NCBI RefSeq assembly: GCF_021531915.1
Contig: NZ_JAFBIV010000003.1
Coordinates: forward strand, 62,001 to 126,000
Length of the DNA: 64,000 bases
Origin: Oscillibacter valericigenes
GTDB taxonomy: Bacteria > Bacillota > Clostridia > Oscillospirales > Oscillospiraceae
Direction of reading: 5' to 3'
Each line of letters begins with the position of its first letter. Position 1 is the first letter of the stretch. The notes under the pieces were generated by a model, which was given only the letters and a program-made list of their open reading frames with translations, was not told where the DNA came from and ran no database searches. Below are positions 39,068-61,478 of this stretch, piece by piece. A program made the position numbers and the translations under genes.

Positions 39068-39360
39068 CCCGGCTTCGCCGGACGGGAATGCGGCCCCCAC
39101 TTTTCTTTGGGTTGCGCCCAAAGAAAAGTCGCCGCCGCAGCGGTGGAAAAGAAAGGCGCTTTCGCGCAAAGCCGGCGCCGATGGCGCCTTTTTGCGCAAA
39201 ACGTTTGGTCGCCGTGGCCAGTGCGGTGCAGACTTGCAAGCCCGTACCGGGTGCGCCCCACGCAGGCGAAACAGAGATAGCCCGCCGCCGCATGCCGAAC
39301 TGCCGCCTTGCTTTCGGGGTGGTCAACGAATGGAATTGTTTCTCTTTCCGCTCCCCCTCC
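39068..39360 (+). repeat. Covarying-hairpin intergenic element, copy A
   Basis: Copy A of a six-member family. In order: stem P0 CCGGC-ttc-GCCGG; linker GGGAATGCGGCCCCC; P1 CTTTGGG-ttgcg-CCCAAAG flanked by TTTT/AAAA; P2 GCGCAAA...GGCGCC-gat-GGCGCC...TTTGCGC; conserved block with GTGCAGACTTGCAAG and GTACCGGGTGCGC; then ACAGAGATAGC and CCGCCGCATG; and a tail TTTCGGGGTGGTCAACG...CTTCTCTTTCCGCT-like. It is non-coding; open frames crossing it lack ribosome sites. Copy D has the same subtype of P2. Confidence 0.85.
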
Positions 39361-39690
39361 GGGGGTGTAGTCCAGAATAGAGGGCCCGCAGGCCCCCTGG
39401 TCTGGCCGTTTCAAGGGGGTGTGGGGGAAACAGGCGAAGCGCCGCCAGTGGCGGATGAAGCGAGCCTGTTTCGAGGAAGCGGCGCGATTCCCGGCCCCAA
39501 AGAGGCCGGGAATCGCAATGCCGCGACGGTGTTGAAATTCGGAATCCCCCCGGGTTTCACCTCGGCCCAGAGGAACGGGCCTCGGATGACCGGGCGGCAG
39601 ATGCCCGGCCTGGAGGGGGTGTAAGGGGGAGGTGTCATTTCAAAAGACCTCTCCCCCTCTTCCCCCGTCCCCCTGTCAAGGGGGACCATC
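39361..39690 (+). repeat. G/C-run hairpin tail following copy A
   Basis: A 330-bp gene-free block joined to copy A. It contains CGTTTCAAGGGGGT, a hairpin GATTCCCGGCC-ccaaaga-GGCCGGGAATC (39486-39514), AATCCCCCCGGGTTTC, CCTCGGCCC-agaggaac-GGGCCTCGG, a CCGGGCGGCAG...CCCGGCC stem and a final GGGGGAGGTGTC...CTCTCCCCCT hairpin. The block after copy D (61490-61740) repeats several of these in the same order. One part also occurs between leuC and leuD. Confidence 0.75.
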
Positions 39691-39691
39691 C

Positions 39692-40573
39692 TCAAAACAG
39701 CCCCACCTGGTTGGGCAGCACATCGCCGCCGATGCTGCGAAGCTGCTGGGTATTCTCCTCCCAGAGCTGATCGGAAATGGCCATTTTGCGGATGATGTTC
39801 TTCACCGTCAGGTCCAGGGCGGTGCCCTCGCTGTAATCCGCCTTGAAGATGAAATCCACTCGCCCCTTGGCCAGCAGGTCCTCCACGCCCATGCGGTTGC
39901 TGTCCTGATACACGGCGATGGCCTGGCCGCCGTAGGCCCGCATCATCTTCATGCAGGGTACATCCGAAAGGCCGTCCCCCATGTAGATCATGTTGGTGAA
40001 GGGCACCCGTTTGCTGTCATCGGGCATGGAATCGTTCAGCGTCTTGTCGTCGGACACGTCCAGCACACCCTTGTTGATGCGGTAGACGAACTGGGTCTTG
40101 GCGGTGAAGTTGACCGCCAGCTTGGGCCAGACGGGGCGGCCGCTCTCATCGTAGTAAAATTCGCTGGCGTAGATCTCCTTGAACTCCCCGCTGATGGAGG
40201 AGCCCTCAATGATCTCCCGCAGGCCGGAGGAGATGATGTAGTGCTCCACCTGGACGCCCTGGGACCTGCCGAACTCATTGATGCGGCGGAACCAGTCCTG
40301 TACACCGGGAAACAGCACGATGCCGCGGCCCTTCTCCACCAGATCCTGGCGGGTGAAGGGGAGGTTTTTCCGCTCTGATTCCCGGATCATGGTATACATA
40401 TAGGCCAGGATGCCGTCGATGCGGTTGCGGCGGCCAAAGCCGTTGGCCAATGCCCAGAACTCCGAGGGCGTCATGCCCAGGGAGGGGATGAAGGCGTAGT
40501 CCTGCATGTCGGTGGTGCAGAGGGTCTTATCAAAGTCATACAAAAAAGCCACGATGGGCATCTGCTTCTCCAT
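39692..40573 (-). CDS. HAD-superfamily phosphatase
   Basis: A 293-residue HAD hydrolase. Motif I is FLYDFDKTLCTTD (nucleophile Asp plus general-acid Asp), motif II is the Ser of YIISSGLREII, and motif IV is MIYMGDGLSDVPCM with the Mg-binding acidic residues. The size and the C1-type cap resemble phosphoserine-phosphatase-like proteins, but the substrate is not evident. AGGAGG precedes the ATG. It lies after the DivIVA terminator and so has either read-through or its own promoter. Confidence 0.85.
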   Translation of the reverse strand: MEKQMPIVAFLYDFDKTLCTTDMQDYAFIPSLGMTPSEFWALANGFGRRNRIDGILAYMYTMIRESERKNLPFTRQDLVEKGRGIVLFPGVQDWFRRINEFGRSQGVQVEHYIISSGLREIIEGSSISGEFKEIYASEFYYDESGRPVWPKLAVNFTAKTQFVYRINKGVLDVSDDKTLNDSMPDDSKRVPFTNMIYMGDGLSDVPCMKMMRAYGGQAIAVYQDSNRMGVEDLLAKGRVDFIFKADYSEGTALDLTVKNIIRKMAISDQLWEENTQQLRSIGGDVLPNQVGLF

Positions 40574-40587
40574 AGGTCCTCCTCATC

Positions 40588-40617
40588 AAAAAAGCGGCTC
40601 CTTCCCGGAGCCGCTTC
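40588..40617 (-). terminator. Terminator after divIVA
   Basis: On the - strand, stem AAGCGGCTCC-gggaa-GGAGCCGCTT followed by TTTT, 9 bp after the DivIVA stop. Confidence 0.88.
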
Positions 40618-40625
40618 TGCGTGAT

Positions 40626-41321
40626 TTATTCGCCGGTGTAGTTGCGGCCGAACTTCAGATCATCCAGGTTGATGCGGCGGGTGGCGTCCAGATCCTCCCG
40701 GGCAAAGGGATCGCCCGTGGGATAGTCGTCCACCGGGGCCTCCTCTTCCACAGGCTCCTCCTTGATCTCTTCCGTAATCTCTTCCGCCTGCTGGGCGGCA
40801 AAAGCGGCCAGCACGTTCTCGCCGATCTCTTCCACCCGGGCTTCCTCCCGGGCAGGGGCGGGCTGCTCCACCTCCAGCTGGGGCAGCTGGTCCAGGAACT
40901 GCAGTTCCCGTGCGCACAGGTCCCGGCTGGCGGAGATAAACTTCGCCAGTTCCTGCTGGCCCTGGGCCAGGCGCTCCTGGGCCACGGTCAGCTCCTGCTG
41001 GTACTGCACGGTCTTCTCCTTGGCGTCGGTGTCGGCCTTGGCCAGGATCTCATCCCGCTTGGCCTCGGCATCCCGGACGATGGAGTCCGCCATGCGCTGG
41101 GCCGTCAGCAGAGTGGCCCGCATGGAATCCTCCGTGGCGCGGTATTCCTCCACCTTCTCCACCAGGACCTTCATCTTGGCCTTCAGGGCCGCGTTTTCCT
41201 TATAAAGAGCGGTATAGTCATCGGTCAGCTCGTCCAGAAACTCGTCGACCATGGCCATGTTGTATCCGCCCATGACCGCCTTGGCAAAGGCGTGTGTGGA
41301 AACTTCCTGCGGTGTCAGCAT
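40626..41321 (-). CDS. divIVA: DivIVA-domain cell-division/polarity protein
   Basis: A 231-residue protein. Residues 1-45 are the membrane-curvature-binding DivIVA head (LTPQEVSTHAFAKAVMGGYN, then MAMVDEFLDEL). A coiled coil runs to ~150, and an acidic, disordered C-terminal tail rich in E follows. It localises to negatively curved membrane at septa and poles and recruits division or wall-synthesis factors. Last gene of the HlyD-YggS-SepF-DivIVA run, 17 bp after sepF. Confidence 0.92.
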   Translation of the reverse strand: MLTPQEVSTHAFAKAVMGGYNMAMVDEFLDELTDDYTALYKENAALKAKMKVLVEKVEEYRATEDSMRATLLTAQRMADSIVRDAEAKRDEILAKADTDAKEKTVQYQQELTVAQERLAQGQQELAKFISASRDLCARELQFLDQLPQLEVEQPAPAREEARVEEIGENVLAAFAAQQAEEITEEIKEEPVEEEAPVDDYPTGDPFAREDLDATRRINLDDLKFGRNYTGE

Positions 41322-41338
41322 ATCTGTCTCTCCCCCTG

Positions 41339-41773
41339 TTAGAAGTACAAGCCGTTATTTTCCAGCTCGTCGATCAGGTCGCCCTCGATATCCACATGGT
41401 AGGGCGTGATGATGTAGGTGTTGGCGGAGACCTTCTTGATCTTGCCCTCACCGGCATAGGCCACGCCGGACAGGAAGTCGATCAGCCGGCGGGCGATGTC
41501 CTTGTTGGTGGATTCCAGGTTCAGGACCACGGTCCGCTTGTCCTTCAGATGGTCGGCGATCTCGGAGGCGTTCTCAAACCGCTCCGGCTTCACCAGCACC
41601 ACCTTCAGCTGGGTGGTGGCGTGGATGTTGACTACCTTGTTGCGGCGGTCCTCCGGCTTGTTGCGCCGGTCCTCAAAGGTGTCCCGGCGGGGGGTCTCCT
41701 CGAACTCCTCAAATTCCTCGTCCTCATCCTCATAGGGATGGGTCAGCTTTTTCAGCTCATCAATAAAGCCCAT
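41339..41773 (-). CDS. sepF: Cell division protein SepF
   Basis: A 144-residue FtsZ-anchoring protein: a short N-terminal amphipathic helix (MGFIDELKKLTHP), an acidic/arginine linker, and the SepF core (VVLVKPERFENASEIADHL, then RTVVLNLESTNKDIARRLIDFLSG). The start at 41773 has AGGAGG 8 nt upstream; an extension to 41806 is not favoured. It sits between yggS and divIVA, the standard Gram-positive order. Confidence 0.95.
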   Translation of the reverse strand: MGFIDELKKLTHPYEDEDEEFEEFEETPRRDTFEDRRNKPEDRRNKVVNIHATTQLKVVLVKPERFENASEIADHLKDKRTVVLNLESTNKDIARRLIDFLSGVAYAGEGKIKKVSANTYIITPYHVDIEGDLIDELENNGLYF

Positions 41774-41802
41774 GGCAGCAGCCTCCTTGTTGGAGTTTTT
41801 CC

Positions 41803-42495
<693 letters not shown>

Positions 42496-42548
42496 ACTTT
42501 CCAACTTCTTTCTATGATAAATTTACAAACTCGTTCTGATTTCCGCCC

Positions 42549-43814
42549 TCAATCCGCGGCCACGACCTTGCCGTCGGAGAGATCTCTGGCAGAGAGGATC
42601 ACTTCATCACCGGGCCGCAGGCGGAGAGTCTCCTTGTCGGAGGGCTGGTCAGCCCGCACCAGCACGAAGTTCTCCCCGCTGTACAAAATCTCCACCGGCT
42701 TGAACCGGGCCTCCACGCCCACCACGCAGTAGACGCCGATGTCCTTGCTCTCCGTGGTGTTCCCGTCCGCGTCCGTTTGGGTGGTGGTCACGACCCGCAG
42801 CGCCTCCTCCGGCACCCGGATGCCCTCCACGCTGTCGGAGATGATCTGGGCGCTCTGCTGCCGCAGCAGCGTCAGCTCAGCCAAGTAGGTCTTTCCCTCG
42901 AATACTACCACGCACCGGCCGTTCTCCTCAGCGCCCACATGGGCCACCGTCACCGTCAGGTCCCGCTCCACGCCTTTGGCGAAGCGGAGCGTCAGCTCCC
43001 CAGCCTCTTTCAGGGCCTGAGCCTCCTCCGTCCGCATGGCAGCCACGTAGTACCAGGAGTCCCCCAGCACCAGCTTGCCCACGCCGGAGGCAACCGCGCT
43101 GTCAACTTTGATGCCGTTCAGCTGCGAGGGCGTCAGCTCCCGGATGCTCTCCGGCGTCAAAACGGTCTCATAGCCGTCCACCACCGCCGAATACAGGCCG
43201 GAGACCGGAGCGGTGACCCGCTGGACGGCGCCCGCGATCTGGGCCTTCAGGTCCTTCACCTGGGCCTGCAGCTCCTGGATCTGGAGGGTCAGGTCCGTGG
43301 TGTCCGTGTTGGTGTAATCCCGCTTCAGTACCTGGGCCCGCAGCTGGGCGCCCTGCTTCTGGGCGTCGCCCAGGTGGCCCGCCGTCAGGGCGGCCCGGTA
43401 ATCCAGGATGTTCCGGCGGATCTGGGTGTCCAGCTTCTGGGCTACCTCCACGCCGACCTCCGCCTCCCGGGCGTATTGTAACTGCCCGATGCGGGCGTTC
43501 AGGGCCTCGATCTCCGTCTGCCGGTCCACTGAGGTCTGGTCGGCGTAGACCGCCGCCACGGTGCCGCCCACGGCGACCCGTTCTCCTTCCGCTCTGCGGA
43601 CCTGAAGCACACCGCCGGTCTGATCCGGTAACACCTGCTCCTGCCGCACCACGTAGCCGGAGACACTGACGGCCTCCTCCACCCGGTAGTTGTATGCCGG
43701 GATGGTGGACAGGGGATCGCTGAAATAGCGGACCGCCTGGAAGCCGAAATAGGCGGCCAGGCCCAATGTCACCGCCGCCATCAATAATTTTGTACCGAGA
43801 GAGTTGTTTTTCAT
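42549..43814 (-). CDS. HlyD-like membrane-anchored adaptor protein
   Basis: A 421-residue protein with one N-terminal transmembrane helix (~9-28), a split lipoyl/barrel-sandwich domain (VSGYVVRQEQVLPDQTGG ... GAVQRVTAPVSGLYS) around a coiled coil (~100-210), and C-terminal beta domains. This matches HlyD-family efflux adaptors, but no ATPase or permease partner is next to it. It lies immediately upstream of yggS-sepF-divIVA, an arrangement that suggests an envelope or division role. That role is inference. Confidence 0.8.
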   Translation of the reverse strand: MKNNSLGTKLLMAAVTLGLAAYFGFQAVRYFSDPLSTIPAYNYRVEEAVSVSGYVVRQEQVLPDQTGGVLQVRRAEGERVAVGGTVAAVYADQTSVDRQTEIEALNARIGQLQYAREAEVGVEVAQKLDTQIRRNILDYRAALTAGHLGDAQKQGAQLRAQVLKRDYTNTDTTDLTLQIQELQAQVKDLKAQIAGAVQRVTAPVSGLYSAVVDGYETVLTPESIRELTPSQLNGIKVDSAVASGVGKLVLGDSWYYVAAMRTEEAQALKEAGELTLRFAKGVERDLTVTVAHVGAEENGRCVVVFEGKTYLAELTLLRQQSAQIISDSVEGIRVPEEALRVVTTTQTDADGNTTESKDIGVYCVVGVEARFKPVEILYSGENFVLVRADQPSDKETLRLRPGDEVILSARDLSDGKVVAAD

Positions 43815-43863
43815 GTTGGCCTCTTATGTAGCCGCGCTCCCCCGGTCAGGGAAAGCGCAGGGG

Positions 43864-44094
43864 TTATGGATCGTTTTCTGTCAGGTCCACGTTCCGTAAG
43901 GGGGCAATGGTGGAAATGGCATGTTTGTAGATCACTTGCTGCCGGCCCTCGCTGTCCAGAATGACCACGAAGGCGTCGAAGCCGGTGATGGTGCCCCGCA
44001 TCTGGAAGCCGTTCATCAGGAACACGGTGACAGGCACCCTGTCCCGTCTGGCTCTGAGAAGAAATAGATCCTGTAAATTCGCTTTGGTCTGCAT
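43864..44094 (-). CDS. hfq: RNA chaperone Hfq
   Basis: A 76-residue Sm-like protein: N-terminal NLQDLFLLRARRDRVPVTVF, Sm1 GFQMRGTITGFDAFVVIL and Sm2 VIYKHAISTIAPLR (the YKHA motif binds uridine-rich RNA on the proximal face). It forms a hexameric ring that aids sRNA-mRNA pairing. The ATG at 44094 has AAAGGAG 8 nt upstream. It follows miaA as in many bacteria. A GC-rich imperfect stem (43836-43860) lies after it, with no T-run. Confidence 0.95.
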   Translation of the reverse strand: MQTKANLQDLFLLRARRDRVPVTVFLMNGFQMRGTITGFDAFVVILDSEGRQQVIYKHAISTIAPLRNVDLTENDP

Positions 44095-44153
44095 ATCGTC
44101 CGCTCCTTTTTCTGTGTGGGTCGGACGATTTTTCCTTTTTTCGTCCGCCGGGA

Positions 44154-49318: not shown

Positions 49319-50026
49319 TTACAGCATAGCCCACGCGCTGAGGGCGTTGGCCGCCGCGTGGATGGCAATGGATGTCCAAAGGGTCCCGCTGTGCTCATAG
49401 GCCCAGGCCAGCACCAGTCCGGGCACCAGATACTGGACCATCAGCAGGAAATAGGTGATGTCCTGCTTCACCACCGCGAACTGCCACACATGCAGCAGGG
49501 CAAACAGCAGGCAGCTCAGCAGGTACGCCACCGCCCGGCTCTTGCTTTTCAGATTGCCGAACACCAGGCCCCGGAAGAGCACCTCCTCCACAAAGGGGGC
49601 CAGGAAAATGACGATCAGCAGTGTCACCCGGGGGGCGTCCTGGATCTGGGCGGAGATGGTGGTGTCGTTCAGGTTGGTGCGGTTGGTGATGACCAGGTTG
49701 CTGAGGCGGTACACCAGCTCATTGAGGCCGTACAGCCCCACCAGGCCCACCAGCACCGACTTGCAGGCGATGCCCAGGTTATCCGCGAACTGGCGGGAGG
49801 TGCGCATCAGGAACTTGTGGAAAATAATGACCGTCACGGCAAACAGGACGTAGTAATAGATCATGTTCTGCACAGTGCCTGAAATGTTCACCGCCAGCAG
49901 CTTCTCCAGCACCCGGAACAGCGGGTCCGTGGCAAAGGGCAGGACCACCAGGTAGATGACGAAAAAGATCACACCGGCGATCTGCTCTCCGGGGGACATA
50001 TAGGATGTGGATTTGCGTTTTGCCAT
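49319..50026 (-). CDS. CPBP-family intramembrane metalloprotease
   Basis: A 235-residue membrane protein with about seven helices and the CPBP/Abi motifs: FVEEVLFRGLVFG (EExxxR), LLFALLHVWQFA (FxxxH) and the last helix with IAIHAAANA (HxxxN). Members process prenylated or other membrane peptides, sometimes for bacteriocin self-immunity; the substrate here is unknown. The ATG at 50026 has GGAGG upstream. The frame upstream of it runs through repeat copy B and is not coding. Confidence 0.88.
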   Translation of the reverse strand: MAKRKSTSYMSPGEQIAGVIFFVIYLVVLPFATDPLFRVLEKLLAVNISGTVQNMIYYYVLFAVTVIIFHKFLMRTSRQFADNLGIACKSVLVGLVGLYGLNELVYRLSNLVITNRTNLNDTTISAQIQDAPRVTLLIVIFLAPFVEEVLFRGLVFGNLKSKSRAVAYLLSCLLFALLHVWQFAVVKQDITYFLLMVQYLVPGLVLAWAYEHSGTLWTSIAIHAAANALSAWAML

Positions 50027-50042
50027 AGAAACCTCCTCAGAT

Positions 50043-50345
50043 ATGCCGGGACCCCGGCATAGGGGATGAACCCCCCATTTTCTTTGGGTTGCGCCCAAAG
50101 AAAACGGGCCGTTCACGGTCCAAAAGAAAGGCGCTTGGGGCGGCTCAAATCGGCACATTCGTGTCGATTTGACCGCAAACGCGAGAGTTGTTGTAGTCGG
50201 TGCCAACTGAGATTGGTAGTCTTCTTCCGGGTGCGTCCGACATGGGTAAAACCGGGGTAGCATACCGCCGCATGTCGAGGCTTCCGTCTTGCTTTCGGGG
50301 TGGTCAACGCATGGAACTGCTTCTCTTTCCGCTGCCGCTCTCGTT
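50043..50345 (+). repeat. Covarying-hairpin intergenic element, copy B
   Basis: P0 ATGCCGGG/CCCCGGCAT; linker with CCCCCCATT; P1 CTTTGGG-ttgcg-CCCAAAG with TTTT/AAAA flanks; P2 GCGG-c-TCAAATCG...CGATTTGA-CCGC. It then has GTAGTCGGTGCC, CCGGGTGCG, CCGCCGCATG and the tail CTTTCGGGGTGGTCAACGCA, then TGGAACTGCTTCTCTTTCCG. It meets copy B' tail to tail at ~50345. Confidence 0.85.
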
Positions 50346-50580
50346 ATGATTTCGAAAGATGATTCACATTGCCAAATGCGGGGAAGCACCATCTCTGTTC
50401 CCCAAGACACAAGCGCACCCGGTACAGGCCCGCAAATGTACACCGCAATGATCACGGCGACTCCGGTTCTTCTCTTTTGGACCGCCCAGCGGCCCGTTTT
50501 CTCTTCTTCGCAAGAAGAGAAAATGGGGGGCTGGCCCCGCGGCGGAGCCGCATGTCTCCCCGCCGTCCGCAGACGGCGCA
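50346..50580 (-). repeat. Covarying-hairpin intergenic element, copy B'
   Basis: Inverted copy, head next to the mutS stop. P0 GCGGC-tcc-GCCGC; linker CCAGCCCCCCATT; P1 CTCTTC-ttgc-GAAGAG with TTTT/AAAA flanks. P2 is absent. The conserved block then follows (GCCTGTACCGGGTGCGC, GGGGAACAGAGATGGTGC, CCCCGCATTTGGC). The tail is truncated where it meets copy B. P0/P1 may also serve as the mutS transcript end. Confidence 0.82.
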
Positions 50581-50584
50581 ATTC

Positions 50585-53188
50585 TCACTTGAGCTTTTGC
50601 TTCAACTCATAAAGAAGCGACATCGCCTCGATGGGCGTCAGCGTATCCGGCTGACACCGCCGCAGGGCGTCCAGCACCTCGCCCTCCCCAATGGCGTCCA
50701 GAGACACCTGGTCCGTCTCCTTCCGGGCAGCCACGTACTGCACGCCGTTCTCCGCCTCCAGTTCTTTCAGGACGGCCTTGGCCCGCTGGACCACCTTGTC
50801 CGGCAGCCCCGCCAGCTTGGCCACCTCGATGCCGTAGCTGCGGTCCGCCCCGCCGGGAACGATCTTCCGCAGGAAGATGATGTCCTCCCCCCTGGCTTTC
50901 ACGGCAATGGAGTAGTTCACGGTGCCGGGCAGGGTATTCTCCAGCTCCGTCAGCTCATGGTAGTGGGTGGCAAACAGGGTCTTGGCCCCCAGAGTCTTCC
51001 TGTCGGCGCAGTATTCCAGCACCGCCCGGGCGATGGACATGCCGTCAAAGGTGCTGGTACCCCGGCCGATCTCGTCCAGGATCAGCAGAGAGTTCTTCGT
51101 GGCGTGATGCAAAATGTCGGAGACCTCCGTCATCTCTACCATGAAGGTGGACTGGCCGGCAGACAGGTCGTCGCTGGCGCCGATGCGGGTGAAGATGCGA
51201 TCCACCACACCGATGTGGGCAAATTTTGCCGGGACGAAGCTGCCCATCTGGGCCATGAGGACGATCAGCGCCACCTGGCGCATATAGGTGGACTTGCCCG
51301 CCATGTTGGGGCCGGTGATAATGGCCACCCGCTCCTCCTTTTCGCCCATGAAGGTGTCGTTGGGGACGAACAGCGTATCCTTCAGGACCTTCTCCACCAC
51401 GGGATGACGGCCCTCCCTGATCTCAATGACGCCGGACTCGTCCACGTCGGGGCGGCAGTAGTTGTTCCGCACCGCCACGGCGGCGAAGGAGGTCAGAGCG
51501 TCGATCTCTGCCACGGCAGCAGCGGTCTTCTGGATGCGCTGGGCGGCGGCGGAGACCTCCTCCCGCAGGGCCGTGAACAGCTCGTACTCCAGTGCCACCA
51601 CCCGCTCGGAAGCCGTCAGGATCTGGTGCTCCAGGTCCTTCAGCTCCTGGGTGATGAACCGCTCACCGTTGACCAGTGTCTGCTTGCGGATGTATGTATC
51701 AGGGACCAGCTCCTTGAAGGAGTTGCTGACCTCGATGTAATAGCCGAAGACCTTGTTGTAGCCGATCTTCAGGGTGCGGATGCCGGTGCGCTCCTTTTCC
51801 TTGGCTTCCATCTCGGCGATGATGCCCTTGCCGCCTTTCAGGATGTGCCGCAGGCGGTCCACTTCCTCGTTAAAGCCGTCCCTGATGAAGCCGCCCTCCC
51901 GGACGGAAAACGGTGGCTCGTCGCAGATGGTGGCGGCGATGCGGGCGCCGATATCGTCCAGGGTATCCAGTTCCGCAGTCAGCTCCGACAGGCGGCGGTC
52001 TGAGAGCCGGGACACCTGTTCCCTGACCGCAGGCAGCTTTTCGATGGCCGCCCGCAGAGAGGCCATGTCCCGGCCACCGGCGGTGCCGTAGACGATGCGG
52101 CCGATAAGCCGCTCCATGTCCCCCAGGCCCGTCATGGCGGCAGTCAGTTCTTCTCTGGCAATGGTGTCCTCCACCAGTGCTGCCACGGCGGAATTCCGCT
52201 TGCAGATGGCGGTGACGCTCAGCAGCGGCCGCTCCAGCCAGGAGCGCAGACACCGGGCACCCATGGGGGTCCTAGTCTTGTCCAGCACCCACAGCAGGCT
52301 GCCTTTTTTCTCCTTGCCCCGCAGGGTCTCCGTCAGCTCCAGGTTCCGCCGGGCCGTCAGGTCCAGCTCCATGAACCGGCCCTGCTCGTAGTAATCCAGG
52401 TCGTTGATGTGGCTCAGGTCGGTCTTTTGTGTCTCGTACAGGTAATTCAGCAGTCCGCCCAGGGCCATGGCCGCCGCCGGGTTCCCGGCGGGCAGGTTTT
52501 TCAGAGCGTCCTCCCCAAACTGCTTCCGGATGTTCTGCTCCGCCTCTTTCAGCAGGAAGCGGCGCTCGCCGCCATTCTCCACCCGGCAGGAGAACTTGTC
52601 CCGCAGGGTATCCGTCAGAGGCCGTTCGGCGTAAGCGCCGTCGTTCAAAATGGCCTCGGCGGGCGAAAAGCGGCCCAGCTCGTTGATGACGTGCTCCAGC
52701 CGGTCCTTGCCGGTGAAGGCCGTCAGGTGGGCCTTGCCGGTGGAGATATCACAGAAGGCCACGCCGGCGCAGCGGGAGTCCAGATAGATGCCGCAGATGA
52801 AATTGCTGGACTTGTCGTCAAGACACGCGGCGTCGATGACAGTGCCGGGGGTCACCACCCGGATAATGTCCCGCTTTACCAGGCCCTTGGCGGTGGCGGG
52901 GTCCTCCATCTGCTCGCAGATAGCCACCTTATAGCCCTTGCCGATGAGCCGGGCGATGTAGGACTCGCTGGCGTGGTAGGGAATGCCGCACATGGGGACC
53001 TTGTCCTCCGGGGCCTTATTGGGGTCCTTGTCCCGGGAGGTCAGGGTCAGGTCCAGCTCCCTGGACGCCGTGCGGGCGTCGTCGGCGAACATCTCGTAGA
53101 AGTCGCCCAGGCGGAAGAACAGGATGGAGTCCGGGTTGTCCTTCTTAATTTCCAGATATTGCTTCATCATGGGGGTCAGTTCCGCCAT
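50585..53188 (-). CDS. mutS: DNA mismatch repair protein MutS
   Basis: A 867-residue mismatch-recognition ATPase. The N-terminal domain holds the Phe-x-Glu mismatch wedge (LFFRLGDFYEMF). Connector, lever and clamp domains follow, then the ATPase with Walker A GPNMAGKSTYMRQ and LLILDEIGRGTSTFDG. The ATG at 53188 has GAGGTG 6 nt upstream; a GTG three codons earlier is less likely. It is separated from mutL by ~2.7 kb holding repeats and three membrane-protein genes. Confidence 0.97.
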   Translation of the reverse strand: MAELTPMMKQYLEIKKDNPDSILFFRLGDFYEMFADDARTASRELDLTLTSRDKDPNKAPEDKVPMCGIPYHASESYIARLIGKGYKVAICEQMEDPATAKGLVKRDIIRVVTPGTVIDAACLDDKSSNFICGIYLDSRCAGVAFCDISTGKAHLTAFTGKDRLEHVINELGRFSPAEAILNDGAYAERPLTDTLRDKFSCRVENGGERRFLLKEAEQNIRKQFGEDALKNLPAGNPAAAMALGGLLNYLYETQKTDLSHINDLDYYEQGRFMELDLTARRNLELTETLRGKEKKGSLLWVLDKTRTPMGARCLRSWLERPLLSVTAICKRNSAVAALVEDTIAREELTAAMTGLGDMERLIGRIVYGTAGGRDMASLRAAIEKLPAVREQVSRLSDRRLSELTAELDTLDDIGARIAATICDEPPFSVREGGFIRDGFNEEVDRLRHILKGGKGIIAEMEAKEKERTGIRTLKIGYNKVFGYYIEVSNSFKELVPDTYIRKQTLVNGERFITQELKDLEHQILTASERVVALEYELFTALREEVSAAAQRIQKTAAAVAEIDALTSFAAVAVRNNYCRPDVDESGVIEIREGRHPVVEKVLKDTLFVPNDTFMGEKEERVAIITGPNMAGKSTYMRQVALIVLMAQMGSFVPAKFAHIGVVDRIFTRIGASDDLSAGQSTFMVEMTEVSDILHHATKNSLLILDEIGRGTSTFDGMSIARAVLEYCADRKTLGAKTLFATHYHELTELENTLPGTVNYSIAVKARGEDIIFLRKIVPGGADRSYGIEVAKLAGLPDKVVQRAKAVLKELEAENGVQYVAARKETDQVSLDAIGEGEVLDALRRCQPDTLTPIEAMSLLYELKQKLK

Positions 53189-53215
53189 GGGGTTCACCTC
53201 GTTATCTCTGTTTAT

Positions 53216-53490
53216 CGTAAGCGGCCGCTTACGGGGGTGGCGCCCCCATTCTTTTTCGTCTTGCCGAAAAAGAATGCGCCGCGCCCGGTGGAAGAAAAAG
53301 TCACTTTTGGCGGCTCAACTTGACACCCTTGTGTCAAGTTGACCGCAAACGCGAAGATTGTCGTGGTCGGTGCGGTAATGATTTGAAGGCTTGTACCGAG
53401 TGCGCCGCACCCTTGGAAAACCGGGAAAGTGCTTCCCCGCATTTGGGGGCTTAGGTGCTTCTTTCGTGGGTGGTCGTCGGATTTGGCACA
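53216..53490 (+). repeat. Covarying-hairpin intergenic element, copy C
   Basis: P0 CGTAAGCGG/CCGCTTACG (perfect palindrome); linker GGGGGTGGCGCCCCCATT; P1 CTTTTTCG-tcttg-CCGAAAAAG; P2 GCGG-c-TCAACTTGACAC...GTGTCAAGTTGA-CCGC. Then GTCGTGGTCGGTGCGGT, TTGTACCGAGTGCGC, AAGTGCTTCCCCGCATTTGG and CTTCTTTCGTGGGTGGTCGTCG. It faces copy C'. Confidence 0.85.
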
Positions 53491-53529
53491 CTTCTGGCCC
53501 CGCACGTTCCGCTTCGCTGCGCACTACCG

Positions 53530-53815
53530 TGAGGTAAGGGGAGCAGCAGCGAAAAGAGAAGCATATTCCATGCGTCTGCCACCCCGAAAGAAAGCCGGAA
53601 GTGTCCGCTTGCGGCGGTATTCTATCATGGTTCTGCCCATGTCAGGCGCAGCCGGCACGGGCATGCAAGTCTGCACCGCAACGATCACGACGACTCCAGT
53701 TCTTCTCTTTTGGACCGCCCAGCGGCCCGTTTTTCTCTTCTTCGCAAGAAGAGAAAATGGGGGGCTGGCCCCGCGGCGGAGCCGCACGTCCCCGCGCCGT
53801 CCGCAGACGGCGCCA
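53530..53815 (-). repeat. Covarying-hairpin intergenic element, copy C'
   Basis: Inverted copy, head next to the miaB stop. P0 GCGGC-tcc-GCCGC; P1 CTCTTC-ttgc-GAAGAG; P2 absent; conserved GTCGTGATCGTTGCGGTGCA, GACTTGCATGCCCGTGCCGG, AATACCGCCGCAAG and a full tail CTTTCGGGGTGGCAGACGCA, then TGGAATATGCTTCTC. Nearly identical to B' through its head, indicating a shared subtype. Confidence 0.85.
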
Positions 53816-53818
53816 TTC

Positions 53819-55231
53819 TCAGACCATCTCCCCGTACAGCGCCCAGGTATTGCTGTCCGTGATCTTCACATCCACGAACTGCCCGATCAAGCTCTTGCCG
53901 CCCTTGAGCCGCACCAGCCGGTTGCCGTCGGTGCGGGATGCCAGGGGGTACATCGGGTCGTCGCTCTCGCCGTCCACCAGCACCCGGACCGTCTGGCCGA
54001 TATAGGCCGCGTGGAGGGCGGCGGACTTGGCGTTCTGGACCTCCAGCAGCTTGTCGAACCACTTCTGCTTCTCCTGGCGGGTGGCGGGGTCCGGCATCTC
54101 CGCCGCCTTCGTGCCGGGACGGGGAGAGTAAATAAACGTAAACAAGGCGTCAAAGCCCACTTCCTCCACCAGGGACACGGTATCCATGGCCTCGGCCTCC
54201 GTCTCGCCAGGGAAGCCGATGATGACGTCGCTGGTCAATACCAGCCCGGGCATGACGGATTTGGCGTAGTTCACCAGGTCCAGGTACTGCTGCCGGGTGT
54301 ACCGCCGGTTCATCTCTTTCAGCACCCGGTCGTTGCCGGACTGGAAGGGCAGGTGCAGCTGGCGGGCCACATGCTGGCTTGCCGCCATGGTGTCAAACAG
54401 CTTCCTGGTTGCGTCCTTGGGATGGCTGGACATGAAGCGGATGCGGTACTCGCCGGGGATCTGGTCGATCTCAGCCAGCAGGTCCGCGAAGTCGTAATCA
54501 AGGTCCAGGTCGTTGCCGTAGGAGTTGACGTTTTGGCCCAGCAGGGTGATGTCCTTGTACCCGGCCTCCACCAGCTCCCGGACCTCCTGCAGCACACACT
54601 GGGGGTCCCGGCTCCGCTCCCGGCCCCGGACGTAGGGCACGATGCAGTAGGAGCAGAAGTTGTTGCAGCCGTACATGATGGAGACCCAGGCCTTGACGCC
54701 CTTCTCCCGCACCACGGGGATGCCCTCGGCGATGGTGCCGTGCTCGTCGTCCACGGAAAAGACCCGCTTGCGGCTCTCATAGACCTGCCACAAAAGCTCC
54801 GGGAACTTCCACAGGGCATGGGGGCCGAAGACCAGGTTCACCAGGGGATAGGATTTTTTGATGCGTTCGGAGACTCGGGTCTCCTGGGCCATGCAGCCGC
54901 AGAGGGCGATGACCATTTCCGGGTTTTCCTTTTTGGCGTGGGTCAGGGCGCCCAGGTTGCCGAAGACCCGGTCCTCGGCGTGCTCCCGGACGGCACAGGT
55001 GTTCAGGATCACCAGGTCCGCCTCGGCAGGCTTGTCCGTCAGGGTAAAGCCGCAGGTCTCCAGCATGCCCATGAGCTTCTGGCCGTCGGCCACGTTCTGC
55101 TGGCAGCCGAAGGTATCCACGCAGGCCACGGGGTGGGCCTCCCGGGCAGCGAACATGTCATATATCTTCTTTTCAAACTCCCGCTGACGGACAAGGTCCG
55201 CTTCGGGAACCAGTACGTTTTTGCGTTCCAA
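53819..55231 (-). CDS. miaB: tRNA-2-methylthio-N6-dimethylallyladenosine synthase
   Basis: A 470-residue radical-SAM methylthiotransferase acting on the MiaA product at tRNA A37. N-terminal cluster cysteines lie in TFGCQQNVADGQ, LNTCAVREHAEDR and ALCGCMAQE. The radical-SAM motif is YGCNNFCSYCIVPYVRG, and a C-terminal TRAM domain ends the protein. The start is a TTG with GGAGG upstream. First gene of the long miaB-mutS-...-hfq strand run. Confidence 0.96.
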   Translation of the reverse strand: MERKNVLVPEADLVRQREFEKKIYDMFAAREAHPVACVDTFGCQQNVADGQKLMGMLETCGFTLTDKPAEADLVILNTCAVREHAEDRVFGNLGALTHAKKENPEMVIALCGCMAQETRVSERIKKSYPLVNLVFGPHALWKFPELLWQVYESRKRVFSVDDEHGTIAEGIPVVREKGVKAWVSIMYGCNNFCSYCIVPYVRGRERSRDPQCVLQEVRELVEAGYKDITLLGQNVNSYGNDLDLDYDFADLLAEIDQIPGEYRIRFMSSHPKDATRKLFDTMAASQHVARQLHLPFQSGNDRVLKEMNRRYTRQQYLDLVNYAKSVMPGLVLTSDVIIGFPGETEAEAMDTVSLVEEVGFDALFTFIYSPRPGTKAAEMPDPATRQEKQKWFDKLLEVQNAKSAALHAAYIGQTVRVLVDGESDDPMYPLASRTDGNRLVRLKGGKSLIGQFVDVKITDSNTWALYGEMV

Positions 55232-56247: not shown

Positions 56248-56279
56248 AAAAAATGAGAGGGGTGACCCTCTCATTTTTT
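56248..56279 (-). terminator. Terminator after the pseudouridine synthase gene
   Basis: On the - strand, stem AAAAAATGAGAGGG with its complement and a T-run, directly after the stop; symmetric in A/T flanks. Confidence 0.85.
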
Positions 56280-56282
56280 AGC

Positions 56283-57203: not shown

Positions 57204-57678
57204 TCCCGGCATCCTTTTTGTCGTATTTTTCGTAGAACCACAGGTACCAAACGGCGCCCAGGATACAGCCGCAGACGATGCACATGTCCGCCACATTGAA
57301 CACGGGGTAGGACTCCCAGAACTGGAACTGGAACATGTCCACCACGTAGCCCAGCCGGGCCCGGTCAATGATGTTGCCGATGCCGCCGGAGAGGATCAGG
57401 AAGCAGGCAGCCAGCCCCAGGGGATGGCGGACGATGCGGCGCACCAGTGCGTACAGCACCGCCAGGACGATGCAGGCGGTGACAGCCAGCAGCAGCCACC
57501 GCTGGCCGGAAAAGCTGGACCAGGCGGCACCGTAATTGTGGACGGTCCGCAGCTCCACCAGACCCGGGAGGAAGGGCATGGACTCCCCCAGGGGGAGGTT
57601 CACGGTGATCCAGTGCTTGACCCACTGGTCCAGCACCAGCAGCGCCGCCCCCAGGACGGCAAAGATCGCATATAACAT
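57175..57678 (-). CDS. lspA: Lipoprotein signal peptidase (signal peptidase II)
   Basis: A 167-residue four-helix aspartyl protease that cleaves lipoprotein signal peptides. The two catalytic aspartates are in GGIGNIIDRARLGYVVDMF and FNVADMCIV. The conserved NTGAAF motif reads NYGAAWSSF here. AAAGGAG ribosome site. It forms a translationally coupled pair with the pseudouridine synthase. Confidence 0.95.
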   Translation of the reverse strand: MLYAIFAVLGAALLVLDQWVKHWITVNLPLGESMPFLPGLVELRTVHNYGAAWSSFSGQRWLLLAVTACIVLAVLYALVRRIVRHPLGLAACFLILSGGIGNIIDRARLGYVVDMFQFQFWESYPVFNVADMCIVCGCILGAVWYLWFYEKYDKKDAGNGTSDAPTE

Positions 57679-57746
57679 GAGGATTCTCCTTTAAGCTCGC
57701 AATGATACTGACCAGTGTACACGCTTTTCCCCGGAAATGCAACCAA

Positions 57747-57778
57747 AACGGCCCGAAAGCAAACGCTTCCGGGCCGTT
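57747..57778 (-). terminator. Terminator after ileS
   Basis: On the - strand, stem AACGGCCCGGAAGC-gttt-GCTTTCGGGCCGTT followed by TT, 13 bp after the ileS stop. Confidence 0.85.
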
Positions 57779-57791
57779 GCGTATGGGATTA

Positions 57792-60548
57792 TCAGAATTC
57801 GGGCAGGGTTGCCACCACGGCAGCGCAGCGGGGGCACAGGTCGTCCTTGCCGGGCTGGGTGGAGTGCTTCCAGCAGCGGGGGCACTTGGCGCCGGCGGCA
57901 TTCTCCACAGAGGCGGCCAGCTCGCCGCCCACGGTGACGTTCACCTGAGAGACGATCAGCAGGTCAGCCAGCAGCTCACTGTCCATCTCCGCCAGGAAAG
58001 CATCCTCCGCGGGAACGGTCAGGTCCACCCGGGCCTCCAGGGCCTTGCCGATCTTCTTCTCGGCACGGGCGGCCTCCAGCACGCCGTTGACGGCGGCACG
58101 GACAGCGATGATCTTGTCCCACTTGGCCATAGCGGCTTCGTCCAGAGCGTAGTCGGCGAAGGGCTGGTTCATGTCGTTGAACACCACGTTGCGGCCGTCG
58201 TCGCCGCCGCGGTGGGGCATGGCCTGCCAGATCTCGTCGCAGGTGAAGGCCAGGATGGGCGCCATGATCTTGGTCATGGTGTCCAGGATCAGGTACAGGG
58301 CGGTCTGGGCGCTGCGGCGCTTGGCGCCGTCGGTCTCGTCGCAGTACAGCCGGTCCTTAATGATGTCCAGGTAGAAGTTGGACATCTCCACCACGCAGAA
58401 GTCGTTGACGGCGTGGGTGACGGCGTTGAACTCATAGTCGTCATAGGCCTTGAAGCACTTGACGATCAGGTCGTTCAGGCGGGTGACGGCCCAGCGGTCC
58501 AGCTCCTCCATCTGGGCGGCGGGAGTCAGGGCGTTGGGGTCGAAGCCGTCCAGGTTGCCCAGGCAGTACCGGGCGGTGTTGCGGAACTTCAGGTAGTTCT
58601 GGGAGAGCTGCTTGAAGATCTCGTGAGAGCAGCGCATGTCGGCGTGGTAGTCGGCGGAAGCGGCCCACAGGCGCAGCAGATCGGCGCCGTACTTGTCGAA
58701 GATCTCGGCGGGGTCCATGCCGTTGCCCAGGGACTTATGCATGGCCTTGCCCTCGCCGTCCACGGTCCAGCCGTGGGTGACGCACTCCTTGAAGGGAGCC
58801 CCCTGGCCGAATGCGCCCACGGCGGTCAGCAGTGCGGACTGGAACCAGCCGCGGTACTGGTCCAGGCCCTCCAGATACATGGTGGCGGGCCAGAAGCCCT
58901 GGTCCCGCTTCATGGCGGCGAAGTGGGTGGAGCCGGAGTCGAACCAGCCGTCCAGGGTGTCCTCTTCCTTCTCAAAGCCGGCGTTCTTGCCGCAGTGGGG
59001 GCAGGTGAAGCCCTCGGGCAGGATCTCCTCGGCGGTCTTGGAGAACCAGGCGTTGGAGCCCTCCTTCTCAAACAGGGCGGAGATGGCGGCGATGGTCTCA
59101 TCGGTGACGATGGGCTTGCCGCAGTCCTTGCAGTAGACCACAGGGATGGGCAGGCCCCACTTGCGCTGACGGGAGATGCACCAGTCGGTGCGCTCCCGGA
59201 CCATGGACTTCATGCGGTCAATGCCCCAGCCGGGCACCCAGCGCACGTCGTCGCAGGCGGCGCAGGCCTCGTCCTTGAAGGAGTCCACGGAGCAGAACCA
59301 CTGGGGCGTGGCGCGGAAGATAATGGGGCCCTTGCAGCGCCAGCAGTGGGGATAGCTGTGGACAATATCCTCGGAGGCAAACAGGGCGCCGCTCTCCTTC
59401 ATATCCGCCAGAATAACGGGGTTGGATTCGTCGGTGGACATCCCGGCGTACTTGCCGGCGTATTCGGTGTGCTTGCCCTGATCGTCCACGGGCACCACCA
59501 TGTCCATGCCGTAGCGCTTGCAGGTCTGGTAGTCGTCGGCGCCGAAGCCGGGGGCGGTGTGGACGCAGCCGGTACCGGAGTCCATGGTGACGTAGTCCGC
59601 CAGCAGCAGGCGGCTGGTCTTGGGCAGGAAGGGATGGTCGGCCAGCATGTTCTCGAAGAAGGCGCCGGGATGGGTCTCCACGATCTCGTAAGACTCCACG
59701 CCGCCCACCTTCATGACCTTGTCGGTCAGAGCCTCGGCCATGATATAGATCTCACCGTTGGCGTTGTTCTTGACCAGGGCGTAGCTCTCATCGGGATGCA
59801 GGGAGATACCCAGGTTGCCGGGCAGGGTCCAGATGGTGGTGGTCCAGATCACGAAGAACAGCTTGCTGTGGTCGAAACCGGGCAGCTTGCCCAGGTCATC
59901 GTGCATGGGGAACTTCACATACACGGTGGTACAGGGATCGTCCTGGTACTCGATCTCGGCCTCGGCCAGGGCGGTCTCGTCGTGGGGGCACCAGTACACA
60001 GGCTTCAGGCCCTTGTAAATGTAACCCTTCTTGTACATCTCGCCGAAGACCTTGACCTCCTCGGCCTCAAAGCCGGGGTCCATGGTGGCGTAGGGATGCT
60101 CCCAGTCCGCCAGAACGCCCATCCGCTGGAAGCCCTCGCTCTGGACTTCCATGTAGTGGCGGGCGAAGTCCCGGCAGGCGGAGCGGAAATCGGGCACGCT
60201 CATCTCCTTGCGGTTCAGCTTGTTCTGCTTGATGATGGCGGACTCGATGGGCATGCCGTGGTTATCCCAGCCGGGGATATAGGGGGTGTAGTAGCCCCGC
60301 ATGGCGTAGGACCGGGTGATGAAGTCCTTGATGGACTTGTTCAGGGCGTGGCCCATGTGGAGGCTGCCGTTGGAGAACGGAGGGCCGTCGTGCAGGTTGA
60401 ACAGGGGCTTGCCCTCGTTCTTCTTCAACAGCTCGTTGTACACGTCCTGGTCCTTCCAGCGCTTCAGCATCTCCGGCTCCCGCTTGGGCAGGCCCGCCCG
60501 CATGGGGAAGTCGGTCTTCGGCAGATTGATGGTCTTGTTGTAATCCAT
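57792..60548 (-). CDS. ileS: Isoleucyl-tRNA synthetase
   Basis: A 918-residue class I synthetase: the HIGH motif appears as SLHMGHALNKSIKD, the KMSKS loop as AMHKSLGNGMDP, an editing domain lies between, and a C-terminal zinc finger CPRCWKHSTQPGKDDLCPRC. The start at 60548 (MDYNKTINLPKTDFPMR) has AGGAG 8 nt upstream; longer in-frame starts lack one. It is expressed behind an isoleucine T-box, with a small zinc-ribbon gene in between. Confidence 0.96.
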   Translation of the reverse strand: MDYNKTINLPKTDFPMRAGLPKREPEMLKRWKDQDVYNELLKKNEGKPLFNLHDGPPFSNGSLHMGHALNKSIKDFITRSYAMRGYYTPYIPGWDNHGMPIESAIIKQNKLNRKEMSVPDFRSACRDFARHYMEVQSEGFQRMGVLADWEHPYATMDPGFEAEEVKVFGEMYKKGYIYKGLKPVYWCPHDETALAEAEIEYQDDPCTTVYVKFPMHDDLGKLPGFDHSKLFFVIWTTTIWTLPGNLGISLHPDESYALVKNNANGEIYIMAEALTDKVMKVGGVESYEIVETHPGAFFENMLADHPFLPKTSRLLLADYVTMDSGTGCVHTAPGFGADDYQTCKRYGMDMVVPVDDQGKHTEYAGKYAGMSTDESNPVILADMKESGALFASEDIVHSYPHCWRCKGPIIFRATPQWFCSVDSFKDEACAACDDVRWVPGWGIDRMKSMVRERTDWCISRQRKWGLPIPVVYCKDCGKPIVTDETIAAISALFEKEGSNAWFSKTAEEILPEGFTCPHCGKNAGFEKEEDTLDGWFDSGSTHFAAMKRDQGFWPATMYLEGLDQYRGWFQSALLTAVGAFGQGAPFKECVTHGWTVDGEGKAMHKSLGNGMDPAEIFDKYGADLLRLWAASADYHADMRCSHEIFKQLSQNYLKFRNTARYCLGNLDGFDPNALTPAAQMEELDRWAVTRLNDLIVKCFKAYDDYEFNAVTHAVNDFCVVEMSNFYLDIIKDRLYCDETDGAKRRSAQTALYLILDTMTKIMAPILAFTCDEIWQAMPHRGGDDGRNVVFNDMNQPFADYALDEAAMAKWDKIIAVRAAVNGVLEAARAEKKIGKALEARVDLTVPAEDAFLAEMDSELLADLLIVSQVNVTVGGELAASVENAAGAKCPRCWKHSTQPGKDDLCPRCAAVVATLPEF

Positions 60549-60589
60549 ATCTCTCGCTCCTATAAAATCAGTTTTCTGTGTCATGCTTC

Positions 60590-60802
60590 TTAAAAATCCA
60601 CGATCAGTTTCCGGCATTTTCGGCAGCGCCATGCCGCCGGGCGGCCCGTTTCATCCTTTGGCAGGCGGACATCGTCCGCGCCCTCCAAAAAACCGCCGCT
60701 CAAAAGTGCTTTGCCTCCGGACTGGTTGGGCGTCCAGATGCACGGCATACCGCATATCAGCCACCCGCGCTCCATAGGTGCGCCGCAGCCAGGGCACTCC
60801 AT
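60590..60802 (-). CDS. Small zinc-ribbon protein (DUF6487-like)
   Basis: A 70-residue protein starting MECPGCGAPMERGWL and ending WRCRKCRKLIVDF: two CxxC knuckles that should bind one zinc. This is the pattern of the small DUF6487/PF20097-type proteins (family name from memory). The ATG at 60802 has AGGAGG 7 nt upstream. It is the first gene after the T-box and lies 41 bp before ileS, so it is co-regulated with isoleucyl-tRNA supply; its function is unknown. Confidence 0.8.
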   Translation of the reverse strand: MECPGCGAPMERGWLICGMPCIWTPNQSGGKALLSGGFLEGADDVRLPKDETGRPAAWRCRKCRKLIVDF

Positions 60803-60825
60803 AAGCATACCTCCTCGCAAAAATA

Positions 60826-61110
60826 AAAACACCTTGTCTCCATCAAGAGACAAAGCGTTAGGAAAAACACTCTGCGGTACCACTCTCGGTTGCCGTGGCC
60901 TTGCGGACACGACCGCTCACAACCCGCCGTCACGGGCCGACGGAATAACGCTCGTCACACGTCCTTACCTACTCGCGTCGTCTTTCAGCAGGAGGCTCCA
61001 AGGTGATTTTCGCCCCCCGCGCCCGTCCGCCTTGCACCAAAACAGCGGCTCTCTTCGCGGGAACCTGAGGGGTACTCGTCCTTATCTACGCCAAAAATGT
61101 TCAATTACTG
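60826..61110 (-). promoter_or_regulatory. T-box riboswitch leader of the zinc-ribbon/ileS operon (Ile specifier)
   Basis: On the - strand: Stem I, T-box core AGAGTGGTACCGCAG (about 60886-60872), then a terminator with stem ACGCTTTGTCTC...GAGACAAGGTGT and a T-run. The specifier position reads ATC (Ile) in GAAA-ATC-ACCTTGGAG, spaced 6 nt before GAG like the other two leaders. Confidence 0.92.
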
Positions 61111-61114
61111 GTTT

Positions 61115-61142
61115 ATCATACCACGTTTTCGCCGTTTGTCAA
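61115..61142 (-). promoter_or_regulatory. Promoter of the ileS T-box transcript
   Basis: TTGACA (61142-61137), 16-bp spacer, TATGAT (61120-61115). Repeat copy D begins about 45 bp upstream. Confidence 0.65.
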
Positions 61143-61187
61143 CGGGAAAGTTGAGCAATTTGTCCCCTTTCCGGGGGCGGGGAGGGG

Positions 61188-61478
61188 GGCGCCGCTTTGC
61201 GGCGCGGGAATGCGCCCCCATTTTCTTTGGGTCTTGCCCAAAGAAAACGGCCGCGCCCGGTCAAAAGAAAGGCGCTTTCGCGCAAAGTCGGCGCCGCTGG
61301 CGCCTTTTTGCGCAAAACGAGGGGGCGTCGTGGCCGGTGCTGTGCAGACTTGCAGGCCCATACCGGGTGCGCTATACCCCTTGGGAACAGAGATGGTGCT
61401 CCGCCGCATTTGATCGTGCGGCACTTCTTTCGGAGATGGTCATCGAATAGACCAGCTTCTCTTTCCGCTGCCGCTCCC
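61188..61478 (+). repeat. Covarying-hairpin intergenic element, copy D
   Basis: P0 GCGCCGC-ttt-GCGGCGC; linker GGGAATGCGCCCCCATT; P1 CTTTGGG-tcttg-CCCAAAG; P2 GCGCAAA...GGCGCC-gct-GGCGCC...TTTGCGC. Then GTCGTGGCCGGTGC, GTGCAGACTTGCAGGCCCAT, ACCGGGTGCGC, GGGAACAGAGATGGTGCTCC, GCCGCATTTG and the tail CTTCTCTTTCCGCTGCCGCT. Same subtype as copy A. Non-coding. Confidence 0.85.

Follow-up and report, generated by a model that had tools for sequence, protein, structure and literature searches.

We analysed a window of 64,000 nucleotides from Oscillibacter valericigenes (G000:C33:62001-126000; here and below G numbers denote genomes and L numbers loci), in which six intergenic copies, A to F, of a repeated element are found. 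In our reading, to which we assign a probability of about 0.6, they belong to a non-coding, multi-copy mobile element of the Oscillibacter/Dysosmobacter group which resembles a miniature inverted-repeat transposable element (MITE) and whose inverted ends, the heads, each fold into a three-strand module. Three segments of one strand change together in these heads, which suggests, as far as sequence comparison can tell, that a three-stranded fold is kept for a purpose. A first-pass annotation of the same DNA had located all six copies correctly, as non-coding sequences, and had proposed selection on a folded single strand, a proposal that is now well supported by two-strand and three-strand covariation. 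The pairing X/X', the mirror tract R3 and a three-strand motif at 61626-61683 on the minus strand, all described below, did not figure in it.

From head to tail, the parts follow each other in the order X, a C-run, Y (pyrimidines), a loop, R (purines), a short link, the hairpin P1b, R3 (purines), P2, a core and a tail. Y pairs with R, and X pairs with X', which lies in the loop of the P1b hairpin, at equal distance from the stem base. The long hairpin is formed by X-CCC-Y with R-GG-X', and the side hairpin P1b has bases in common with it. The stem arms that the first-pass annotation had quoted for the hairpin P1 are correct; the TTGC loop, which it took for a kept feature, is not constant. A covariance model of the 5' block of the element (R1, 77 positions) was used for searches of the genus and the order. 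For the statistics, 285 of 292 hits were kept after five had been dropped for short model coverage and two for lack of the hairpin. These correspond to 215 unique contexts, 185 of which have purine runs in both places, with 77 unique R/R3 combinations. The X/X' test comprised 120 of the 215 contexts, and 190 items with sufficient flank were retained for nearest-neighbour contrasts.

The paired runs of X and X' have a mean of 3.42 compared to 1.54 (standard deviation, sd, 0.09) for shuffled partners, and the score peaks at register 0 of the seven registers tried, with 1.3-2.1 at the other six. In the nearest-neighbour contrasts, 85 of 94 were concordant, 8 tied and 1 discordant. The variants include TGAAC/GTTCA, TGCAC/GTGCA, GGCGC/GCGCC, TCCGGC/GCCGGA, CCAGC/GCTGG, CTCCG/CGGAG and TCAAAA/TTTTGA. 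Among the 215 contexts, P1b has a G.T(U) pair in 179 and A-T in 4; 23 were not classed, and nine that were scored as G-C or A.C look like nested inserts. The GCC of P1b is common to the long hairpin, and the opposite letters next to X, which are unpaired in the long hairpin, are CC in 165 of 166 contexts. The P1b counts were drawn from the 215 contexts and not from a GC[CT]..GGT parser (206 parsed, 30 failed), since the latter demands that pattern and its output says nothing about P1b.

The third segment, R3, is R in the reverse direction, its letters from 5' to 3' being those of R from 3' to 5', as in the R/R3 pairs GAGAAGAAGAGGAGC/GGAGGAGAAGAAGA (L107) and GAAAAAGAGAGAATG/GGAAGAGAGAAAAA (L048) or the R3 tract CAAAGGAAAAG (L227). 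Exact mirrors of 8-16 nt were found in 175 of the 185 contexts and comprise 36 distinct strings. Over the 77 combinations, the mirror score was 9.53, and 1000 shuffles of the partners gave a mean of 6.50 (sd 0.17) and at most 7.07; the direct-repeat score was 7.18 compared to 6.18 after shuffling; the mirror fitted better in 61 combinations, the direct repeat in 2, and 14 were tied. R3 also tracks R among disjoint pairs of heads that are nearest by flank yet differ in R, with 85 concordant, 5 tied and 1 discordant of 91 contrasts (48, 3 and 0 for the closest pairs alone), as opposed to 50 concordant, 27 tied and 14 discordant for the direct-orientation control. The spacer between R and R3 measures 12-21 nt in 183 of the 185 contexts, mostly 15-17 nt, and 29 nt in the other 2, and contains P1b. 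A model-free scan of the window for a hairpin with a mirror tract returned seven motifs, one for each of the copies A-F plus the one at 61626-61683, compared to a mean of 0.0 in 30 first-order Markov resamples. In the mutS loci, the same scan with exact 8-nt arms separated mirror (35) and direct (30) arrangements poorly, and the discrimination between the two orientations rests on the shuffle test and the nearest-neighbour contrasts.

The mirror rule is kept, with other letters, in seven loci of six other genera among the 29 loci of the order search (L166, L167, L168, L173, L175, L177 and L185), with the motif and the model match of L177 in different parts of the locus. The exact 8-nt arrangement occurs in 8 of these 29 loci, of which L170 was discounted as low complexity. 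The motif type of hairpin plus mirror tract may be widespread. The short repeat at 61626-61683 (minus strand), which stands outside the A-F family, has the order Y, loop, R, spacer and mirror R3 with an outer stem GGGGGACA/TGTCCCCC, and its own family, with the same order and an 8-bp outer stem, was also seen at L013 (position 1540), L215 and L227. In two IMG/VR contigs (L296, L297), likewise outside the element family, there are single stretches that combine a Y-R hairpin, a very short spacer and a mirror-like tract of purines.

This layout, a mirror repeat beside a homopurine-homopyrimidine hairpin, is that of a triple helix (PMC4666352). Such a triplex would use the purine motif on the top strand and, with T.A-T and C+.G-C triplets, the pyrimidine motif on the bottom one. 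Imperfect triplets, inspected by eye as a clue to the strand that acts, were too few to favour either strand. We infer that the three strands of each head form an intrastrand triple helix, and that the fold acts as a single-stranded nucleic acid.

P2 is exchanged wholesale among heads, and stems of at least 8 bp were present in the P2 region of 21 of 36 own heads compared to 1 of 180 mononucleotide shuffles. The paired P2 arms TCAAATCG/CGATTTGA had been assigned to copy B, where they are indeed found; a second set, TCAACTTGACAC/GTGTCAAGTTGA, belongs to D rather than to C. Both C and E are devoid of P2. A pairing of R3 with the 3' tail CTTCTCTTTCC was considered by eye only: the tail varies little, and R3 varies. 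The palindromes called P0 were not upheld as a constant part of the element: those of D and B have counterparts in the element-free loci L056 and L057, but clean element-free junctions elsewhere are without them, so that P0 may be a target, a footprint or an end piece.

The heads are combined into two-headed units. Among the loci examined, 95 pairs of neighbouring heads less than 1.6 kb apart were counted, 21 of which were removed as sequence-identical. Of the remaining 74, 69 are convergent with the heads pointing outward, one is a collapsed convergent pair (L025, 71 bp), four are tandem and none is divergent. The convergent pairs span 368-1297 bp with a median of 610 bp, and the ends within a unit are inverted, not identical. 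In the one-contig genome G096, 19 matches resolve by eye into seven convergent pairs. In genome G089, clustering of the cores gave two groups with 15 members each, and all 15 pairs join a core of one group to a core of the other; this two-core-type point rests on G089. Together with the 69 convergent pairs, the mixing of cores in G089 disfavours an origin of each pair by two separate insertions. At distances above 1.6 kb, convergent neighbours were found at L135 only, flanking mutS, among the loci examined, and in none of the match lists of G096, G033 and G000. By the general rule of convergent pairs, B+C and D+E are probably two elements and not four, and A and F single heads; the six positions given earlier are valid, and their reading as six separate units is better replaced by this one.

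In the window, copies flank, among others, miaB, mutS and a CAAX-protease gene. The single head A (39068-39360, plus strand) has X at 39090-39094, Y at 39100-39111, R at 39117-39128, P1b at 39130-39145, R3 at 39146-39156, P2 at 39164-39197 and the tail at 39339-39354. The left head of the first unit, B (50042-50345, plus strand), comprises P0 (50042-50061), X (50067-50071), Y (50078-50088), R (50094-50104), P1b (50106-50121), R3 (50122-50131), P2 (50141-50175) and the tail (50320-50339). Its partner C (50346-50580, minus strand), which also lacks the 3' tail, has X at 50530-50534, Y at 50514-50523, R at 50497-50506, P1b at 50479-50495 and R3 at 50469-50478. In the second unit, the left head D (53216-53528, plus strand) consists of P0 (53217-53232), X (53239-53243), Y (53248-53258), R (53265-53275), P1b (53276-53291), R3 (53291-53300), P2 (53311-53345) and the tail (53491-53506), and the right head E (53530-53815, minus strand) of X (53764-53768), Y (53748-53757), R (53731-53740), P1b (53712-53728), R3 (53702-53711) and the tail (53546-53562). 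The gaps inside the pairs are 12 bp (B+C) and 25 bp (D+E). The single head F (61188-61478, plus strand) has X at 61211-61215, Y at 61221-61231, R at 61237-61247, P1b at 61249-61262, R3 at 61263-61272, P2 at 61280-61313 and the tail at 61456-61475. The gene mutS (50585-53197, minus strand) lies between B+C and D+E and served to compare orthologous junctions; its product shares 94% identity with MutS of Oscillibacter valericigenes An890 and 98% with the MutS of the metagenome-assembled genome L056.

Within some heads, two different small repeats are nested (L021 at about 2910-3055, L058 and L115 downstream of mutS; L028 at 2334-2460, L207, L135, L198, L232 and L233). One, ..GACTGCGCCCGCAGGCGCGTGTCGGAGCC.., replaces part of the 3' arm of P1, and the other, CCCTCCAGAGGGGCTTCTC.., sits between R and P1b. 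Genes of the XRE/helix-turn-helix (HTH) type were found within 400 bp outside the heads in 11 of 35 cases in G089, 2 of 38 in G000 with the window and 4 of 14 in other genomes; whole-genome HTH_3 matches number at least 98 in G089 (among the first 150 of 173 candidates) and 46 in G000. In G089, a small XRE/HTH gene has its stop codon 8-125 bp ahead of the beginning of 10 of 35 heads, and one more head lies beside a start. The loci concerned are L195-L204 in G089, L209, L211-L213, L118 and L076. Between the two heads of L118 and of L076 there is, as read by eye, an HTH gene together with a divergent one of about 80 codons; in the L118 gene pair, which was checked, one gene matches HTH_3 and the other is without a Pfam match.

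The element is common yet patchy within the genus. An iterated nhmmer profile seeded with the copies A-F and run on the window plus 20 further stretches gave 41 hits, 35 of them long. The covariance model matched 41 times in the whole genome G000 (2.49 Mb in 63 contigs, 97.7% complete), the palindromic short site C6:3973-4048 being counted on both strands. Matches were obtained in 64 of the 86 genomes of the genus search, with at least 55 per genome at the highest, and, mostly weakly, in 30 of the 295 genomes of the order-wide sample, the own genome being included in each; the cultured strain Oscillibacter valericigenes An890 has 6. The family postulated from six copies was in this way recovered in related genomes, and its covariation strengthens as sequences are added. 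A coding origin was rejected, in line with the non-coding status claimed before: any one frame is open in at most 14 of the 35 copies when counted from each copy's own start, which is a rough check, and the lengths fall into all three classes modulo 3. At gathering thresholds, Rfam returned three T-boxes for the window and no match to the element, and it gave nothing at E<=1 for the relatives' loci L196, L201 and L203. Spread by plasmids or phages was rejected on a comparison of copy F only: none of 72,556 plasmid records matched it, and a search of 50,697 phage records yielded a single weak match of 70 bp.

Orthologous junctions with and without the element show its gain or loss. In a conserved region whose genes were read by eye as fabK, fabG and fabF, two sites were compared. 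Clean gene-to-gene junctions were found in four of ten loci at site 1 (L277, L278, L279 and L285) and in two of nine at site 2 (L288 and L294). Other repeats or fillers occupy L280, L281, L282 and L284 and L286, L287, L289, L290, L292 and L293, L283 holds a decayed element, and L291 a divergent full one. In the mutS region, L056 is without both elements, and L057 and L125 are without the downstream one. The dispersed intergenic copies, the lack of signs of a common reading frame and these element-free junctions fit the MITE-like reading offered in the first-pass annotation, and the element would have moved by transposition. A Y1 transposase is not needed for a high copy number: PF01797 had no match in G000 with its 41 element matches or in G031, G006, G057, G090 and G005, which have at least 36 element matches each and are 96, 85, 92, 69 and 80% complete, respectively, and is present in 36 of the 86 genus genomes. 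An unrelated second intergenic repeat was noticed at the gene start read as fabK (L280, L281, L282 and L284) and at the mutS end (L060, L061, L068, L074 and L116). Along with it, 72-95 bp from the start or end of the neighbouring gene are directly duplicated in 8 loci; in L284, the duplication covers 121-387 bp, and the second repeat itself is also doubled. This duplication apparently leaves the gene whole, like a very long target duplication.

Since the fold and not the letters is kept, something would read the folded single strand. The element could become single-stranded as a transcript or as DNA during replication or transposition; R3 would then run back along the purine arm of P1 as a third strand, giving a compact triple-stranded knot per head that, in the mechanism we favour, would be recognised by shape and not by sequence. 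The reader could be a mobilising enzyme acting in trans at the ends, or the knot could block nucleases on the transcript. Action as RNA falls just short of an even chance in our estimate, recognition as single-stranded DNA is a tentative second option, and a fold that does neither appears quite unlikely. In its boldest form, the proposal states that these are ends of a bacterial mobile element with a true triple helix under selection, possibly an RNA triple helix of the ENE (expression and nuclear retention element) type that protects or marks the transcript, which is conceivable from the sequences but on the doubtful side.

Several observations weigh against the reading of a mobile element with a selected three-strand fold. 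In 10 of the 185 contexts, no exact 8-nt mirror was present, the 36 mirror strings partly overlap, and some of them are mirror-symmetric and thus uninformative as to mirror or direct repeat; likewise, 31 of the 120 contexts score only 0 or 1 in the X/X' test. The shuffles overstate independence, because haplotypes have common ancestry, and the nearest-neighbour contrasts are not a tree-based null, as blocks may be exchanged among copies. Single heads fold with energies that are no more than moderately low (z of -1.7 to -3.5). On the top strand, the conserved wobble of P1b reads G.U, but the bottom strand has A.C in its place, an argument against an RNA of the bottom strand. With regard to the units, the cores of G000 do not form two types (one cluster of 19 and one of 1, with 1 of 10 pairs mixed; similarity 0.23 within pairs compared to 0.25 overall). 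With regard to mobility, no target-site duplication was recognised by eye at the two sets of filled and empty junctions, and neither a mobilising enzyme nor a longer, autonomous form of the element was found. Among the full units listed, the most similar ones are about 85% identical, so that no recent movement is seen, and L276, from the close relative G080, is a decayed remnant, which implies that some element-free sites are deletions and not ancestral.

Among the alternatives, a DNA-only triplex or cruciform repeat that acts via replication stalling and rearrangement, with neither an RNA role nor a dedicated enzyme, as proposed for the Escherichia coli repeat TM_ECO, is unlikely without being far-fetched. 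The Y-R-R strand order is that of class II intrastrand triplexes (PMC4666352), and one and the same junction in relatives carries the element, a decayed remnant, another repeat or nothing. Instability alone would not obviously preserve the X/X' and mirror relations over so many variants, however, and covariation is not the evidence given for TM_ECO, to whose 23 copies in E. coli that source ascribes 'an extraordinary degree of identity' (PMC4666352). A bidirectional terminator or a cassette for mRNA 3' ends or attenuation, with GGGG-CCCC plus ATTTTCTTT in one direction and P1b plus GTTTTCTTT in the other, would account for the many heads that, by eye, adjoin stop codons or ribosome-binding sites and for the terminator-like scoring sites in D and E. 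It is improbable, as pairs lie among co-directional genes (miaB-mutS-CAAX protease, and those read as fabK, fabG and fabF) and the mirror tract is left without a role; moreover, of the 8 terminator-like sites in 49900-53950, compared to 3.5 (sd 1.9) after shuffling, 5 are outside the elements and none is in B or C.

Templated correction can maintain Watson-Crick palindromes. Quasi-palindrome correction and gene conversion could thereby imitate selection on the hairpin, with the likeness of R3 due to low-complexity chance or shared ancestry, and it suits this explanation that the tracts consist of A and G only and that 5' blocks within one genome are often identical. We know of no templated correction that produces mirror repeats, though, and the mirror score above all 1000 shuffles of the same tracts, the weaker direct-repeat control and the mirror rule kept with different letters in distant genera already disfavour such an origin, which we regard as very improbable. 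Hardly any weight is left for ends that are read by a single-stranded DNA transposase of the IS200/IS605 or RAYT (Y1; REP-associated tyrosine transposase) type, i.e. for a derivative of the PATE (palindrome-associated transposable element) or REP (repetitive extragenic palindromic) kind: folded single-stranded ends and the lack of a visible target-site duplication would suit it, and the missing PF01797 matches in G000 and the five further copy-rich genomes count against it.

Triplex motifs in bacterial repeats are already known, and the part that appears new is the three-strand covariation in a two-headed element. According to Holder et al. 2015 (PMC4666352), potential intrastrand triplexes (PITs) are abundant in bacteria, and the G/C-rich TM_ECO shows triplex formation in vitro as well as a link to unstable loci. 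The heads resemble class II PITs and TM_ECO of the ITxF database in having Y-loop-R-loop-R on one strand and many intergenic copies, and TM_ECO in being patchy among close relatives with some copies as inverted pairs (PMC4666352). TM_ECO, in contrast, is described as G/C-rich, 37 nt long and almost free of variation, and no tie of it to mobile elements was found (PMC4666352), whereas the heads are A/T-rich with tracts of 8-16 nt, an outer X/X' helix, a two-headed arrangement and three-strand covariation. ITxF is defined there with loops of 1-6 nt (PMC4666352). The second spacer of the heads, which is mostly 15-17 nt long and holds a hairpin, lies outside this range, and an ITxF search would overlook them.

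The eukaryotic ENE/MALAT1 RNA triple helix has the order U-rich, stem-loop, U-rich, loop, A-rich, a topology that viral ENEs have as well. Read as sequence, the bottom strand of the heads has the order U-rich, stem-loop, U-rich, A-rich, and each strand of a unit carries it once because the heads are inverted. In the plant retrotransposon Copia93 Evade, an ENE raises mobility by protecting the element's RNA (PMC12501189); the heads share with ENE/MALAT1 and Evade the bottom-strand order and, with the latter, the location in a transposable element (PMC12501189). They differ in being bacterial, in having an internal A-rich tract in place of a poly(A) tail and in containing C+.G-C positions. With prokaryotic MITEs and mosaic repeats such as BOX, RUP and SPRITE, as portrayed in PMC10969869, the element shares its short, non-coding, intergenic and modular nature, inverted ends and stable stem-loops; unlike the MITEs portrayed there (PMC10969869), it has heads of about 280 bp that differ within a unit, and no short terminal inverted repeat, target-site duplication or parent insertion sequence was recognised. 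In the literature on intrastrand triplexes, bacterial RNA triple helices and Oscillibacter/Dysosmobacter repeats, in which subscription journals were thinly covered, we neither recognised the element nor found three-strand covariation reported for any two-headed element.

The role of triplex-forming repeats in bacteria is open, and motif counts alone give no answer. As three segments of one strand co-vary over dozens of variants, a triplex role becomes testable here by triple-compensatory mutation. The family occurs in common gut bacteria, a cultured strain included, and its sequence diversifies while a tertiary-like fold is retained; if true, the three-strand covariation would be evolutionary proof that natural triplexes can be functional. 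Apart from the element, the window contains T-box leaders at 20352-20597, 25400-25660 and 60843-61097, all on the minus strand.

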